Origin: Opitutaceae bacterium
GTDB lineage: Bacteria; Verrucomicrobiota; Verrucomicrobiia; Opitutales; Opitutaceae
Reading direction: 5' to 3'
Assembly (NCBI GenBank): GCA_014879845.1
Contig: JACSRI010000193.1
Coordinates: forward strand, 1-32,995
Length of the DNA stretch: 32,995 nucleotides
Made by a program: the position numbers and the translations under genes. Below, piece after piece: positions 19,681 through 30,576 of this stretch (the stretch's first letter is position 1; every line of letters starts with the position of its first letter). The notes under the pieces were generated by a model. That model did no database searches and was not told the DNA's origin. It was given only the letters and a program-made list of their open reading frames with translations.

Positions 19681-19756
19681 CCTGGAGAGCCGAGCTCCCG
19701 CCCGGCCGCATCCATGCACAGACATCCGCGGCCGGGCAGGAGCCCGGCCCTCCACT
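19681..19756. repeat. 76-nt palindromic repeat, copy 1
   Basis: It begins CCTGGAG, ends CCCTCCACT, and has internal arms GCCCGGCCGC (19700-19709) and GCGGCCGGGC (19728-19737) around an 18-nt variable centre. It has the same length and the same outer 30 and 16 bases, with few changes, as the element at 26861-26936 (about 59 of 76 positions identical by eye). It lies 19 bp beyond the argG stop codon. Confidence 0.8.
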
Positions 19757-19775: not shown

Positions 19776-21041
<1,266 letters not shown>

Positions 21042-21255
21042 GGACGGACGAGTTGGTTTTCCTGTCGTGGATGACGCCTCAGGCTGCCGCCTGCGGGATC
21101 GTGAAACAGCGGATGATTTTGCACGCGCGGCAAGAAGTTTCGCGCAGGGGCGCCGGAGGGTTCTCTCCATGCCCCAAAACGGTTCACGCTTCTTTGACAT
21201 CAAGTCAGTGTCACGGTCTCAAGGCCCCGCAGACCGTCCCGAAGCTACGAGCACT

Positions 21256-22896: not shown

Positions 22897-22971
22897 GTCG
22901 GGCGAGGCCTCCGGCCGAGCCGCGCCAACGATCGGCTTTCGCTCGCGGCTCGGCCAGAGGCCTCGCCCGAC
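22897..22971. repeat. Long hairpin repeat between argD and argF
   Basis: Two 28-nt arms (22897-22924 and 22944-22971) are reverse complements with a single mismatch, around a 19-nt centre. The arms carry GGGCGAGGCCT and GGCCGAGCCGCG. It lies 15 bp after the argD stop and 71 bp before the argF start, inside a probable operon. On the minus strand it has no T-tract. A 23-nt stretch of the right arm recurs exactly at 29237-29259. Confidence 0.85.
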
Positions 22972-24226: not shown

Positions 24227-24320
24227 GTGCGGATTTCGGAATGCGGACTGCGGAACGGCTGAGTTCACTGAACAACGGCACGGATGGCGCGTGCGGCAAT
24301 CCGCACTCCGAAATCCGCAT
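24227..24320. repeat. Inverted repeat in the argB-argD gap
   Basis: Two 21-nt arms (24227-24247 and 24300-24320), built on GCGGATTTCGGA, are reverse complements at 19 of 21 positions and separated by 52 nt. Partial extra copies of the TGCGG motif flank both arms. The element fills most of the 110-bp gap between argB and argD. Its base composition is lower in GC than the neighbouring genes. Confidence 0.75.
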
Positions 24321-25296: not shown

Positions 25297-25448
25297 GGTC
25301 ACAGAGGGCACAGAGATGACACAGAGTTCATCGAGATGCCTCCCGCAACTCCACCTCGCGGGCGGCGGTGCGCCCGCGCCGATATACCCTACGCCGATAG
25401 TCGGAGTCGCTCCGTGACCTCTGTGTCACCTCTGTGCCCTCTGTGGCC
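25297..25448. repeat. CACAGAG-bordered inverted-repeat element, copy A
   Basis: Left arm from 25297 reads GGTCACAGAGGGCACAGAG and continues GATGACACAGAG; the right arm, ending at 25448, is its near-exact reverse complement over about 38 nt (few mismatches). The centre holds a separate 8-bp hairpin CGCGGGCG/CGCCCGCG (25357-25378). The element occupies about half of the argB-argJ divergent gap, so it lies between or over both promoters. A related element is at 30457-30576. No open frame for a transposase is inside. Confidence 0.85.
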
Positions 25449-25487
25449 CCCTCCGGTTCGCATCGGCACGAGTTTCGGCTTAACACC

Positions 25488-26831
25488 ATGGCGCGCTGCC
25501 CGCATCGGTCGATCGTGCCCAGCACCGCCCTCACCTTCTCGTCGCGCGAGCAACACCGCGTCTGGCTCGCCAGTCAGGCCGCCTTGCCCGTCGGTTTTCG
25601 CGTCGGCACGACGCGCTTCGCTTTCACACCCGTCGAGGTGCCGAAGCCCGCGAAGATGACGCTCACGCTCATCGCGCTCGACCAGCCGACGGCGGACTTC
25701 GCCGCGATGTTCACGAAGAACGCCTTTCCCGGCGCGCCCATCATCACCGGCCGCCGCCGCCTCGCCGAGCCCCGCCTCGGGGCGATCCTCGTGAACAACA
25801 AGATTTCCAACGTCTGCGCGCCCGGCGGCGTGGAGACGAGCGAACGCCTCTGCGCCGAGACCGCCGCGGCGCTCGGCCTCAAGCCCACCGAGGTGCTGCA
25901 GAGCTCCACCGGCGTGATCGGCTGGCGCCTGCCCGTCGACGCCATGAGCGCCGAGCTCCCGAAGGCCGTGGCCGCGCTCGCCCCCGGCTCGATCCTGCCC
26001 GCCGCGGAAGGCATCGTGACGACCGACCTGTATCCAAAGATCCGACGCGCCTCCGTCGGCGCCGGCTCGATCGTCGGCATCGCCAAGGGCGCCGGCATGA
26101 TCGAGCCCAACATGGCGACGATGCTCGTTTACGTGCTCACCGACCTCGCCGTGCCGCGCGACGCCCTGCGCGCCATGCTCGCGCGCACCGTCGACCGCAC
26201 GTTCAACTGCATGAGCATCGACAGCGACACGAGCACGTCCGACTCGATCGCCCTACTCTCGTCGGGCCGCATCCCATGCCCAGATCTCGCGGCCTTCGAA
26301 GCCGCGCTCCTTCAGGTCTGCGCCGATCTCACCGAGGATGTCGCGCGCAACGGCGAGGGCGTCCGCCACGTCATGCGCGTGACGATCACGGGGGCGCCGC
26401 GCGAGAAAATCGCGCGCGCCATCGCCAAATCTGTCGTCAACGCCCCGCTCTTCAAATGCGCCGTGGCCGGCAACGACCCCAACGTCGGCCGCCTGCTCCA
26501 GGCCATCGGCAAGTGGGTCGGCGCGAACGACGCAGCCCTCGACCTCAGCCGCACACGCGCAACGCTCGGCGGCATCACGATCGTGGAGAACGGCACCTTC
26601 GTGCTCGATCCCACGAAAGAGGACGCGCTCGTCGCGCACCTCAAGGCGGCCGAACTCTACGCGAGCGCGCCGCCGCAGGACGGCGTGTTTTCGCCGCCGA
26701 TCGATTACCCGCCGCACGAGCGCTGCGTGGAGATCGCCGTCGATCTCGGCCTCGGCAGCGCCAGCGCGACCGTGCTCGGCGCCGACCTCACGCATGAATA
26801 CGTGAGCGAAAACGCCGACTACCGCAGTTGA
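25488..26831 (+). CDS. argJ: Glutamate N-acetyltransferase / amino-acid acetyltransferase (ArgJ)
   Basis: Transfers the acetyl group from N-acetylornithine to glutamate, so the cyclic arginine pathway can be used; some family members also use acetyl-CoA. The self-cleaving Ntn-type junction is KGAGMIEPNMATML, with the new N-terminal nucleophile at T211. Other blocks are STGVIGWRLPVD, GIVTTDLYPK, FNCMSIDSDTSTSDS and AVAGNDPNVGRLLQAIGKW. At 447 residues it is about 40 longer than usual, with an extra N-terminal segment (MARCPHRSIVPSTALTFS). The true start could be later. GTG codons further upstream lie inside the repeat and are unlikely. It is divergent from argB. Confidence 0.94.
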   Translation: MARCPHRSIVPSTALTFSSREQHRVWLASQAALPVGFRVGTTRFAFTPVEVPKPAKMTLTLIALDQPTADFAAMFTKNAFPGAPIITGRRRLAEPRLGAILVNNKISNVCAPGGVETSERLCAETAAALGLKPTEVLQSSTGVIGWRLPVDAMSAELPKAVAALAPGSILPAAEGIVTTDLYPKIRRASVGAGSIVGIAKGAGMIEPNMATMLVYVLTDLAVPRDALRAMLARTVDRTFNCMSIDSDTSTSDSIALLSSGRIPCPDLAAFEAALLQVCADLTEDVARNGEGVRHVMRVTITGAPREKIARAIAKSVVNAPLFKCAVAGNDPNVGRLLQAIGKWVGANDAALDLSRTRATLGGITIVENGTFVLDPTKEDALVAHLKAAELYASAPPQDGVFSPPIDYPPHERCVEIAVDLGLGSASATVLGADLTHEYVSENADYRS

Positions 26832-26860: not shown

Positions 26861-26936
26861 CCTGGAGGGCCGGGCTCCCGCCCGGCCGCGAATGCGCAAC
26901 GACGGAGGCGGCCGCGCCGGAGCGCGGCCCTCCACT
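26861..26936. repeat. 76-nt palindromic repeat, copy 2
   Basis: Same length and ends (CCTGGAG...CCCTCCACT) as the element at 19681-19756, with the left arm GCCCGGCCGC conserved and the right half altered (GCGGCCGCGC). It fills the gap from 29 bp after the argJ stop to 1 bp before the ATG of the GH2 gene, so it forms the whole immediate leader of that gene. Confidence 0.8.
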
Positions 26937-26937
26937 G

Positions 26938-29184
26938 ATGACACAAGCACGACATCTCCGCGTTCACCATCAATACCCGCTGGGCTTCGAACTCGGCTGG
27001 CATCGCGACCGCGAGGCCGAGCCCGAGGCGTGGGTTCCCGCGCAGGTGCCCGGCGCCGTGCAGCTCGACTGGGCGCGCGCCCAAGGCTGGCCCGACTGGC
27101 GGTTCGGCGACGAGTGGCGCCGTTACCGCTGGATGGAGGATGTCCACTGGACGTATCGGGCGCGATTTGACGCGCCGGCGCCTGCATCGAGCACGGACGG
27201 CGAGATCGTCCTCTGGCTCGGCGGCATCGACCACTCCGCCGAAGTGTTTCTCAACGGCGCCAAGATCGCCGACCACACCGGCATGCAGACGCCCGTGGAC
27301 GTCCCGCTCACCTCGCTCCGCCCGCACGACAATGAGCTGCGCGTTCGCCTGCGCCCGGTCCCGAAGTCGTGCACCGGGCCGGAGAATCGCGTCCAGGCGA
27401 ACGCGACGACGAAACCGGCGGTCGGCTACCTCTGGGATTTTCACCCGCGGCTCATCCCGCTCGGCCTTTGGCGCGAGGCGGAGCTGCGCGTGCGGCCGGC
27501 GCAGCGCATCGCGGGCGCGGAGCTCTTCTGTGACCTCGCGCGCGACCTGGCCTCGGCCCAGGTGCGCCTCATCGTCGCGGTGAAAAACCCCGCCGCCGGC
27601 ACGCTGCGCTGGCGCGTGTTCGGTCCGGCCGGCGACCCGCTCGCCGACGTCGAGGTCCAGGCCACCACGACAACGCTTCATACGACGATCACACGACCCG
27701 CGCTCTGGTGGCCGCACGATCAGGGCGCCCCCGCGCTTCACCGCTGGGAACTTGAGTTCATCGACGCCACCGGTGCCGTGCTCGACCGCGCGAGCGGCCG
27801 CTTCGGCGTGCGCCGCGCCGCGCTCCTCATGCACGAGGGCGCGTGGCAAGGCTTCGACCGCTGCCCCATGCCGCGCGAGCACGCGCCGATCACACTCGAG
27901 GTGAACGCACGCCGCCTCTTTGCGAAAGGCACGAACTTCGTCAGCCCCGAGGTGTTTCCGGCAACGGTCGCCGACGAGACCTATCGCATGCAGCTCACGC
28001 TCGCGCGCGACGCGGGGTTTTCGCTCATCCGCCTTTGGGGCGGTGCGCCGGCGCCGCGCGATGCCTTCTTCGAACTCTGCGACGAACTTGGCCTCATGGT
28101 CTGGCAGGAGTTCCCGCTCGCCTGCAACCGGTATCCGGATACAGCGGAGTATCTCGCCGAACTCGGGCAGGAGGCGCGCAGCCTGATCACGCGCCTGCGT
28201 TCACACCCCTCGCTCGTGCTGTGGTGCGGCGGCAACGAGCTTTTCAACCACTGGTCCGGCATGACCGACCAGGATGCGCCGGTGCGTCTGCTCGCGAGCC
28301 TGTGCTGGCAGCTCGATCCGACGCGACCCTTCTTGCCGACCGCGCCGTTCGGCCACATGGCGCATGGGCCGTATTCTTTTCGTGAGCACGTCGGCGGTTG
28401 GGAGATCTGGTCGGTCTTCCAGGATCGCGCGCACACGGCCTACACGGAATTTGGCTGCACCGCGCCGACGCACGCCGACACGGTGCGACGCGTGTTGCCG
28501 CCCGCGGACCTGTGGCCGCCGCACCACGGCACGGCGTGGGATGCGCACACCGGCCACACACCCGGCGACTTCGGTCACCTCAAGCCCGAGATGATCGAGG
28601 CCTACCTCGGGCCGATCACGTCCCTCGAGGACCTCGAGGAGAAGGGGCAACTGCTCCAGCTCGAGGGCGTGCGTGGACTCTACGAGGAGGCGCGCCGCCA
28701 GAAACCGCGCGCCGCCATGGCGCTGACCTGGTGCTTCAATGAGCCCTGGCCCACGCTCATGAACTGCGCGCTCGTCGCGTGGCCGAGCCGTCCCAAGCGC
28801 GGCTACGATGGCGCGAAGCTCGCCTGCCGCCCCGCGCTTGCGAGCGCCCGCATCCGCAAGTTCGCATGGGCCGCGGGGGAGCTGTTCGATCCGGAGCTCT
28901 GGTTGCTCAACGACGCCCCGCGCGAGCTCGCCCCGGGCACACTCGTCGCGACACTATGCCTCGGCGGCAGGCGCTGGGATCTCGACCGTTGGAATTTCCC
29001 TGGCGCGGAGGCTGCGAGAAACATCGCCGGCCCGCGTGTGACGCTGACTCTACCCGATGCTCCGCCAGGGCTGTTCCAGCTTGAGCTCGCCGTCGCAGGA
29101 CACCCGGAGCTGGACAGTACCTACACGCTCTGTTTCGGCCCGCACGATCCGGCGATGCTGGACGTGCGCGGCTTCAGAACGTGA
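26938..29184 (+). CDS. Glycoside hydrolase family 2 protein, beta-mannosidase-like
   Basis: 748 residues. The N-terminal jelly-roll (residues ~1-190) has QVPGAVQLDW, WTYRARFD, WLGGIDHSAEVFLNG and the VGYLWDFHPRLIPLGLW block typical of beta-mannosidases. A beta-sandwich follows, then the TIM barrel with FAKGTNFVSPEVFP, FSLIRLWGG and MVWQEFPLACNRYP. The acid/base glutamate is E434 in WCGGNE and the nucleophile is E504 in TEFG. It lacks a signal peptide and is somewhat shorter than classical ~820-residue enzymes, so it probably acts inside the cell on imported mannosides or related oligosaccharides. The family is clear; the exact substrate is inferred. The ATG lies 1 bp after a palindromic repeat, leaving no Shine-Dalgarno. 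Confidence 0.88.
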   Translation: MTQARHLRVHHQYPLGFELGWHRDREAEPEAWVPAQVPGAVQLDWARAQGWPDWRFGDEWRRYRWMEDVHWTYRARFDAPAPASSTDGEIVLWLGGIDHSAEVFLNGAKIADHTGMQTPVDVPLTSLRPHDNELRVRLRPVPKSCTGPENRVQANATTKPAVGYLWDFHPRLIPLGLWREAELRVRPAQRIAGAELFCDLARDLASAQVRLIVAVKNPAAGTLRWRVFGPAGDPLADVEVQATTTTLHTTITRPALWWPHDQGAPALHRWELEFIDATGAVLDRASGRFGVRRAALLMHEGAWQGFDRCPMPREHAPITLEVNARRLFAKGTNFVSPEVFPATVADETYRMQLTLARDAGFSLIRLWGGAPAPRDAFFELCDELGLMVWQEFPLACNRYPDTAEYLAELGQEARSLITRLRSHPSLVLWCGGNELFNHWSGMTDQDAPVRLLASLCWQLDPTRPFLPTAPFGHMAHGPYSFREHVGGWEIWSVFQDRAHTAYTEFGCTAPTHADTVRRVLPPADLWPPHHGTAWDAHTGHTPGDFGHLKPEMIEAYLGPITSLEDLEEKGQLLQLEGVRGLYEEARRQKPRAAMALTWCFNEPWPTLMNCALVAWPSRPKRGYDGAKLACRPALASARIRKFAWAAGELFDPELWLLNDAPRELAPGTLVATLCLGGRRWDLDRWNFPGAEAARNIAGPRVTLTLPDAPPGLFQLELAVAGHPELDSTYTLCFGPHDPAMLDVRGFRT

Positions 29185-29236: not shown

Positions 29237-29259
29237 CGGCTCGGCCAGAGGCCTCGCCC
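29237..29259. repeat. Solo arm of the argD-argF hairpin repeat
   Basis: These 23 bases (starting CGGCTCGGCCAGAGG) are identical to part of the right arm at 22944-22971. No matching left arm is visible nearby. The copy lies in the 111-bp gap between the convergent GH2 and decarboxylase genes and is followed by TACC, giving the GCCCTACC end seen at 16004-16011. Confidence 0.7.
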
Positions 29260-29295
29260 TACCGCCCGGCGCGTCGGCTCAACCGAGAATCCCGC

Positions 29296-30456: not shown

Positions 30457-30576
30457 TGAACCACAGAGGACACAGAGTGCACAGAGATCAGACGAAGGAA
30501 AACCGCCGGGGCTGGATGCACGCGAGGACGGTCTCGAGAGACCGCCCTCCGTGTCCTCTGTGAACTCTGTGGTTCA
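30457..30576. repeat. CACAGAG-bordered inverted-repeat element, copy B
   Basis: Left arm TGAACCACAGAG (30457-30468) and right arm CTCTGTGGTTCA (30565-30576) match exactly. Further in, the arms continue with CACAGAG blocks that pair imperfectly, to about 30 nt each. The centre holds a perfect 7-bp hairpin CGGTCTC/GAGACCG (30529-30544) flanked by GAGG and CCTC. It shares border design with the element at 25297-25448 but not its core. It lies between homospermidine synthase and the decarboxylase. Confidence 0.82.

Follow-up and report, generated by a model that had tools for sequence, protein, structure and literature searches.

Two similar palindromes of 76 nt lie in different gaps between genes of a 32,995-nt stretch of an Opitutaceae genome (the window), one just beyond argG and the other between argJ and a glycoside hydrolase family 2 (GH2) gene. 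They raise the question of whether such elements are copies of something mobile and, if so, which enzyme moved them. The original prediction, which relied on their equal length and variable centre, was of a mobile or actively copied non-coding element like the REP sequences, present in more than a handful of copies, with stems that change by compensation and with the same palindrome on the flanks of a RAYT gene elsewhere in the genome or in related Opitutaceae genomes. Textbook REPs have GTAG at the foot of the hairpin. They are thought to be copied by a small domesticated transposase, the REP-associated tyrosine transposase (RAYT), an HUH single-strand nuclease.

The elements at 19681-19756 and 26861-26936 share 78% identity over 76 nt, in agreement with the 59 of 76 positions counted by eye in the original prediction, and both are extragenic by the Pfam and open reading frame calls. 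The first is in the gap between argG and a Gfo/Idh/MocA oxidoreductase gene on the minus strand, the start of which (19588) is our own choice, and the second is between argJ and the first ATG of the GH2 gene. Two copies are therefore present as predicted, but the recurring unit is 72 nt and not 76 nt. Comparison with the other copies in the genome places the repeat proper, TGGA...TCCA, at 19683-19754 and 26863-26934. Both window copies also have an outer CC and CT, which are not general in the others. Each 72-mer consists of two facing 28-nt units around a 16-nt centre. A unit is made up of TGGAG, an 8-nt arm, a 4-nt loop, a second 8-nt arm and GCG, with GGAG flush against the 8-bp hairpin (Table 1), and thus has the REP arrangement, in which a conserved tetranucleotide stands 5' of a short hairpin.

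Table 1 Positions of the GGAG-tagged units in the window and of the genes around them.
Feature	Position	Strand	Evidence
GGAG-tagged REP unit, pair 1 left, imperfect stem	19683..19710	+	Covariance model R1, 39.9 bits
Centre of pair 1, 16 nt, sequence unrelated to other centres	19711..19726		Sequence comparison
GGAG-tagged REP unit, pair 1 right	19727..19754	-	Covariance model R1, 50.1 bits; folds as predicted hairpin
GGAG-tagged REP unit, pair 2 left, identical to family consensus	26863..26890	+	Covariance model R1, 50.8 bits; folds as predicted hairpin
Centre of pair 2, 16 nt	26891..26906		Sequence comparison
GGAG-tagged REP unit, pair 2 right	26907..26934	-	Covariance model R1, 42.9 bits; sequence
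argG (argininosuccinate synthase), context	19776..21203	-	Pfam PF00764, PF20979
argJ, context	25434..26831	+	Pfam PF01960
Glycoside hydrolase family 2 gene, context	26938..29184	+	Pfam PF22666, PF00703, PF02836

Folded as single-stranded DNA, the right unit of pair 1 and the left unit of pair 2 give exactly the predicted unit hairpin, and each whole pair gives one long imperfect hairpin. None of 200 shuffles folds better than the first 72-mer, and one of 200 folds better than the second. An Rfam search of the window found a tRNA only. The right unit of pair 2 stops 3 nt 5' of the first ATG of the GH2 gene (window 26934-26938) and would, if that ATG is the start, occupy the place of the ribosome-binding site.

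A BLAST search of the genome (G000; 5.44 Mb, 277 contigs, completeness 99.43%) with the second copy gave 48 matches. The whole-genome search with a covariance model, which had been proposed together with the original prediction, used a model (R1) built from an alignment (A1) of 54 units, derived from 58 initial hits by removing five spurious ones and adding the left unit of pair 1 by hand. From 26,263 first-look candidates 150 were scored, which gave 115 matches at E ≤ 10; four with E > 1 were left out, leaving at least 111 units with E < 0.5, the many copies per genome that are typical of REPs. The units group into at least 65 places, with at least 41 head-to-head pairs, at least five tail-to-tail pairs and at least 19 single units; sequences were compared for 60 of the 65 places, five weak single hits being left out. 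The lengths of the head-to-head pairs cluster: at least 13 are of 71-72 nt, including both window copies, at least 14 of 90-91 nt, at least seven of 106-108 nt and at least seven of other lengths. Chance palindromes in GC-rich DNA are ruled out, as the pattern TGGAGGGCNNNGCTCCNGCNNNGCC with up to one mismatch occurs 36 + 40 times in the genome and its reversed control 0 + 0 times. The short pattern TGGAGNGCCGNGCTCC with two mismatches was no different from its control (102/102 versus 106/108) and provides no evidence.

Within the TGGAG tag, G2, G3 and A4 do not vary among the 54 units of A1, and at least 90% of these units have the last G. The stems change by compensation. In A1, 97% of the cells pair and there are 38 double changes, compared with 12.7 in shuffles; the number of base pairs with a double change (four) is not unusual, being reached in 87 of 500 shuffles. 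Because A1 is biased towards good hairpins, the stems were assessed separately using the free triplets of TGGAGGGC NNN GCTCC N GC NNN GCC. All three positions are Watson-Crick pairs in 37 of 45 units, where 10,000 reshuffles (units from the 60 places) gave a mean of 9.0 and a maximum of 20. Copy number and compensatory change, both of which the original prediction depended on, are thus as it supposed.

The family model NF047646 detected one RAYT in G000 (C75:54333-54704; loci L060, L061 and L144) with a score of 80.8 bits, which contains an in-frame TAG; a second match was weak (12.7 bits). The C75 gene was rejected as the mover of the GGAG family, since it is flanked on both sides by hairpins of a GTAG-tagged REP family with a different stem (GTAGGGCGAGGCCTCCGGCCGAGCCGCG) and is placed outside the GGAG clades in the first of the two trees described below. 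A RAYT of the clade found next to GGAG hairpins in relatives (clade I) gave two matches in G000, of which the best is again the C75 gene (37%). No RAYT matching the GGAG family was detected in G000 with either the NF047646 model or the clade I protein. As the sole RAYT detected belongs to the other REP family, the GGAG family of the window is an orphan in this genome and its link to a RAYT rests on the relatives. The suggestion that it is actively copied here was not borne out, given that no matching RAYT was detected and that the only one detected has an in-frame stop and belongs with other hairpins.

The second REP family, GTAGGGCGAGGCCTCCGGCCGAGCCGCG, is also found in the window as a head-to-head pair near 22897-22971, with tags decayed to GTCG, and as a single unit with GTAG at 29238-29262. 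Further repeats in the window include long inverted repeats rich in CACAGAG at 25297-25448 and 30457-30576 (arms of 39 and 30 nt), which are alike in sequence, unrelated to the REP families and look like another class of repeat. An inverted repeat at 24228-24319 has GCGGATTTCGGAATGCGG-like arms of 30 nt that are 87% complementary.

Searches of 252 genomes of the same family revealed TGGAGGGCNNNGCTCCNGCNNNGCC with up to one mismatch in 67, at least ten times in 24 of these and to a maximum of 155 + 167 in G245; the reversed pattern was found at most three times per genome. In one relative (G048) two pattern hits bracket an intact RAYT of 157 amino acids. This protein, used as a query on 27 genomes, most of which had been picked for their pattern hits, gave 16 loci with 50-100% identity in 14 same-family genomes. 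A [CTG]GGAGGG unit adjoins the RAYT gene in all 16 loci, on both sides in 13. The predicted RAYT gene flanked by the same REP was thus not detected in G000 and is present in relatives.

An alignment of 15 of the 16 loci was used for a protein-only search of named genomes, which gave 183 relatives. The best 80 were retained; these are mostly Verrucomicrobiota and other PVC records, with eight labelled as other phyla. GGAGGG is present within 300 nt of 79 of the best 80 (the exception is L397) and on both sides of 68; at ten of the loci one flank is shorter than 300 nt. Of the 15 XYAGGG words other than GGAGGG, none is on both sides of more than five loci. GTAGGG, one of the 15, flanks none of the best 80 on both sides and five on either side, and CGAGGG is on either side of 30. 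Excluding the 12 loci from genomes already used, the GGAGGG counts are 67 of 68, and 56 of 68 for both sides. In contrast, 30 RAYT loci identified with only the family model have GTAGGG on both sides in nine cases and on either side in 15, and GGAGGG on both sides in two and on either side in 11. A strict hairpin scan of the best 80 loci found GGAG hairpins at 53 (both sides at 38), the next most frequent foot at ten and GTAG at none; by eye, 23 of the remaining 27 have GGAG hairpins bearing mismatches (e.g. GA/GA) that the strict scan refuses.

The clade I RAYTs match the E. coli TnpA-REP (PDB 4er8) at E 8.2e-14 and retain the PDH-H and Y...NPV motifs; for the one member scanned, no Pfam family was matched at E ≤ 0.001. 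The 75 members of the clade form one side of a branch (SH-aLRT support of 95, quick method) in a tree of 105 RAYTs. This tree was built from 59 named loci, after 12 duplicates and nine with stops or fewer than 145 amino acids had been left out of the 80, and from 46 of the 55 sequences of a first tree (nine divergent or mistranslated rows were left out). In the first tree, which held 55 of 61 RAYTs and included a mistranslated row (L078), the 16 rows of the clade were supported 91/98.

H101 of the E. coli protein is discussed among the residues for GTAG recognition, with R sometimes in its place, in passages of PMC6006769. At the aligned position the clade (n = 75) has T in 51, R in 21, and K, S and V in one each, and never H. 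Among 26 GTAG-labelled RAYTs, some of which have the tag on one side only, 25 have H; the remaining one is the C75 gene, where H is seen by eye after the stop. T at this position was seen only in clade I. As the members of the clade share ancestry, the correlation between residue 101 and the tag represents one change and not many. Residue 101 as the sole determinant of the tag is not supported: a second group of RAYTs with GGAG hairpins (group II; L138, L139 and L153) has R, H and H, and L147 (G076), which was left out of the second tree, has GTAGGG hairpins in its flanks, yet R at 101. With exceptions in both directions there is no one-residue code. Group II is a small group of RAYTs (in G149, G133 and G141) with GGAG hairpins of other stems (TGGAGGCGGG...) on both sides.

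Six pattern-rich genomes (G061, G076, G191, G221, G245 and G246) gave no clade I RAYT by protein query, and none of their 27 scanned RAYT loci has an adjoining TGGAG-tagged hairpin; one of the 27, L167, is flanked on each side by hairpins that have a different stem and an AGGAG tag. These genomes resemble G000 in this respect and are evidence against a simple one-to-one link between hairpin and enzyme. In G061 (L440-L446) there are arrays in which TGGAGGGCCGTGCTCCGTCACGGCC alternates with a second GGAG-tagged hairpin, TGGAGGGACGCCCTCCGTGGCGTCC; the pattern occurs more than 270 times in this genome, where the clade I query found no RAYT of the clade.

The centres of the 71-72-nt class have a mean identity of 0.34 and the 30-nt flanks 0.28 and 0.26, the chance value being 0.27 if a GC content of 65% is assumed. 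The class therefore consists of inverted doublets with a preferred length and a diverse spacer, as do REPINs. The variable centre had been taken as a sign of active copying, a reading that was not upheld: highly diverse spacers are a trait of REPINs in published passages of PMC8049555, and unrelated centres are also found where the matching RAYT is intact. In G047, which has such a RAYT, the left arms of four pairs are 0.95 alike and the centres 0.36. The values for three pairs of G045 are 0.75 and 0.44, and for six pairs of G076, where no clade I RAYT was found, 0.87 and 0.30. Comparison of G047 with G076 indicates that the centre is variable with or without the RAYT.

The matching RAYT may instead be present in the organism and absent from the draft assembly, in which case the family would still be active. 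The 277 contigs, and the position of some copies near contig ends (C42, C198, C218 and C267), are compatible with this explanation, but the completeness of 99.43% and the lack of any remnant of the clade, by the family model or the clade I protein, make it unlikely. It is unlikely that the elements are host regulators under selection (terminators, attenuators or stabilisers of mRNA ends) whose likeness to mobile REPs is secondary. Both window copies are in gaps between genes on the same strand, the arms are kept when the centres are not, and such roles are reported for REPs in passages of PMC3733652 and PMC6006769. However, no intrinsic terminator or promoter pattern was found at either window copy, and intrinsic terminators were rejected there; a host regulator would not explain the same-tag units with changed stems that flank RAYT genes in relatives.

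A MITE-like element encloses some of the pairs: terminal repeats resembling GGCGTGTTTTCAAACC stand on either side of ten of the 17 pairs of 85-91 nt and of three single units, the distance between the ends being 162-164 nt for the ten pairs (e.g. L279 on C172, L280 on C174, L288 on C250 and L290 on C263). The genome has 24 GGCGTGTTTTCAAACC-like ends with up to two mismatches and none in the reversed control, and outside the ends, at the distance expected, TA is found on the left in 7 of 13, on the right in 8 of 13 and on both sides in 4 of 13. On C256 (28244-28293) the spacing of two GGCGTGTTTTCAAACC ends is 50 nt, which leaves no room for a REP pair. A MITE with an internal REP pair, moved by a DDE transposase, is nevertheless very unlikely to be the main way in which the family spread. 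The pairs of 71-72 nt (13, with both copies of the window) have no shared flanks, the terminal inverted repeats expected at the ends of a MITE are absent around the 71-72 and 106-108-nt classes in the sequences inspected, and the 24 ends include no apparent pair that bounds an element of IS length.

The 72-mers are very probably elements of the REPIN type. The copies in G000 are most likely left over from earlier RAYT activity, as relics or as remains kept by vertical descent, and a MITE-like element would later have carried one class of pairs. The many copies, the compensatory stems and the association with a RAYT in relatives support the REP-like, mobile type of non-coding element originally proposed. 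The unrelated centres count against this explanation, as they imply that the 72-mers are not simple copies of whole units. Mechanistically, a RAYT would bind the hairpin on single-stranded DNA, with GGAG as the putative guide that sets the cleavage site. In passages of PMC8266576 the tag takes part in the choice of cleavage site, with A3G4 matching the CT site. As GGAG keeps the A3G4 of GTAG, cleavage is predicted at CT, as published for GTAG REPs. The units would have been copied by the RAYT, which may then have been lost from G000, as its absence from the draft genome suggests, and one class of REP pairs may afterwards have been carried by the MITE-like element.

A broader interpretation is put forward tentatively: GGAG may be a further large class of tag beside GTAG and CGTC, with its own RAYT clade throughout the Verrucomicrobiota and in other phyla, in which a T-to-G change of guide base 2 accompanied an H-to-T (at times H-to-R) change of residue 101; the RAYT would have disappeared from G000, where the pair would since have been carried as the core of a TA-targeting MITE. 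What is new is the GGAG-tagged REPs with their own RAYT clade; the REP/REPIN kind is known. The papers cited here describe the reading of GTAG-type tags by RAYTs, and a natural clade next to GGAG hairpins supplies dozens of pairs of enzyme and hairpin in which swaps, made either way, can probe the guide code. G000 is also a case of REPs persisting where their enzyme is not detectable.

No paper was found in a literature search for GGAG and RAYT as whole words, and 'ggag' as the start of a word is absent from the running texts of PMC3733652, PMC2817692, PMC8266576, PMC6006769 and PMC3116915. As figures and supplements fall outside this search, a GGAG foot may have been mentioned before. A search for TGGAGGGC with 'palindrom' gave none on REPs by title among the matches listed. 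The running text of PMC3733652 gives GTAG and variants such as GYAG, GTRG and GTGG, and not GGAG.

The 72-mers are similar to the REPINs of Pseudomonas fluorescens (in passages of PMC3116915 and PMC8049555) in having two inverted REPs, a preferred pair length and a spacer much less conserved than the ends, and in forming a long hairpin when single-stranded; unlike those, the G000 family has a GGAG tag and no matching RAYT was detected. The GTAG REPs, including those of Opitutus terrae (Di Nocera 2013; passages of PMC3733652), likewise have a hairpin of 20-40 nt with a 5' tetranucleotide tag, form head-to-head and tail-to-tail dimers and flank RAYT genes, but the second base of their tag is T where that of the window family is G. 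With GGAG, the family is a member of neither the GTAG (GTRG) nor the CGTC REP superfamily. The E. coli TnpA-REP (4er8; passages of PMC8266576 and PMC6006769) is matched by the clade I RAYTs, which share its PDH-H and Y...NPV motifs and differ in forming a clade of their own, adjoining GGAG hairpins, with T or R replacing H101.
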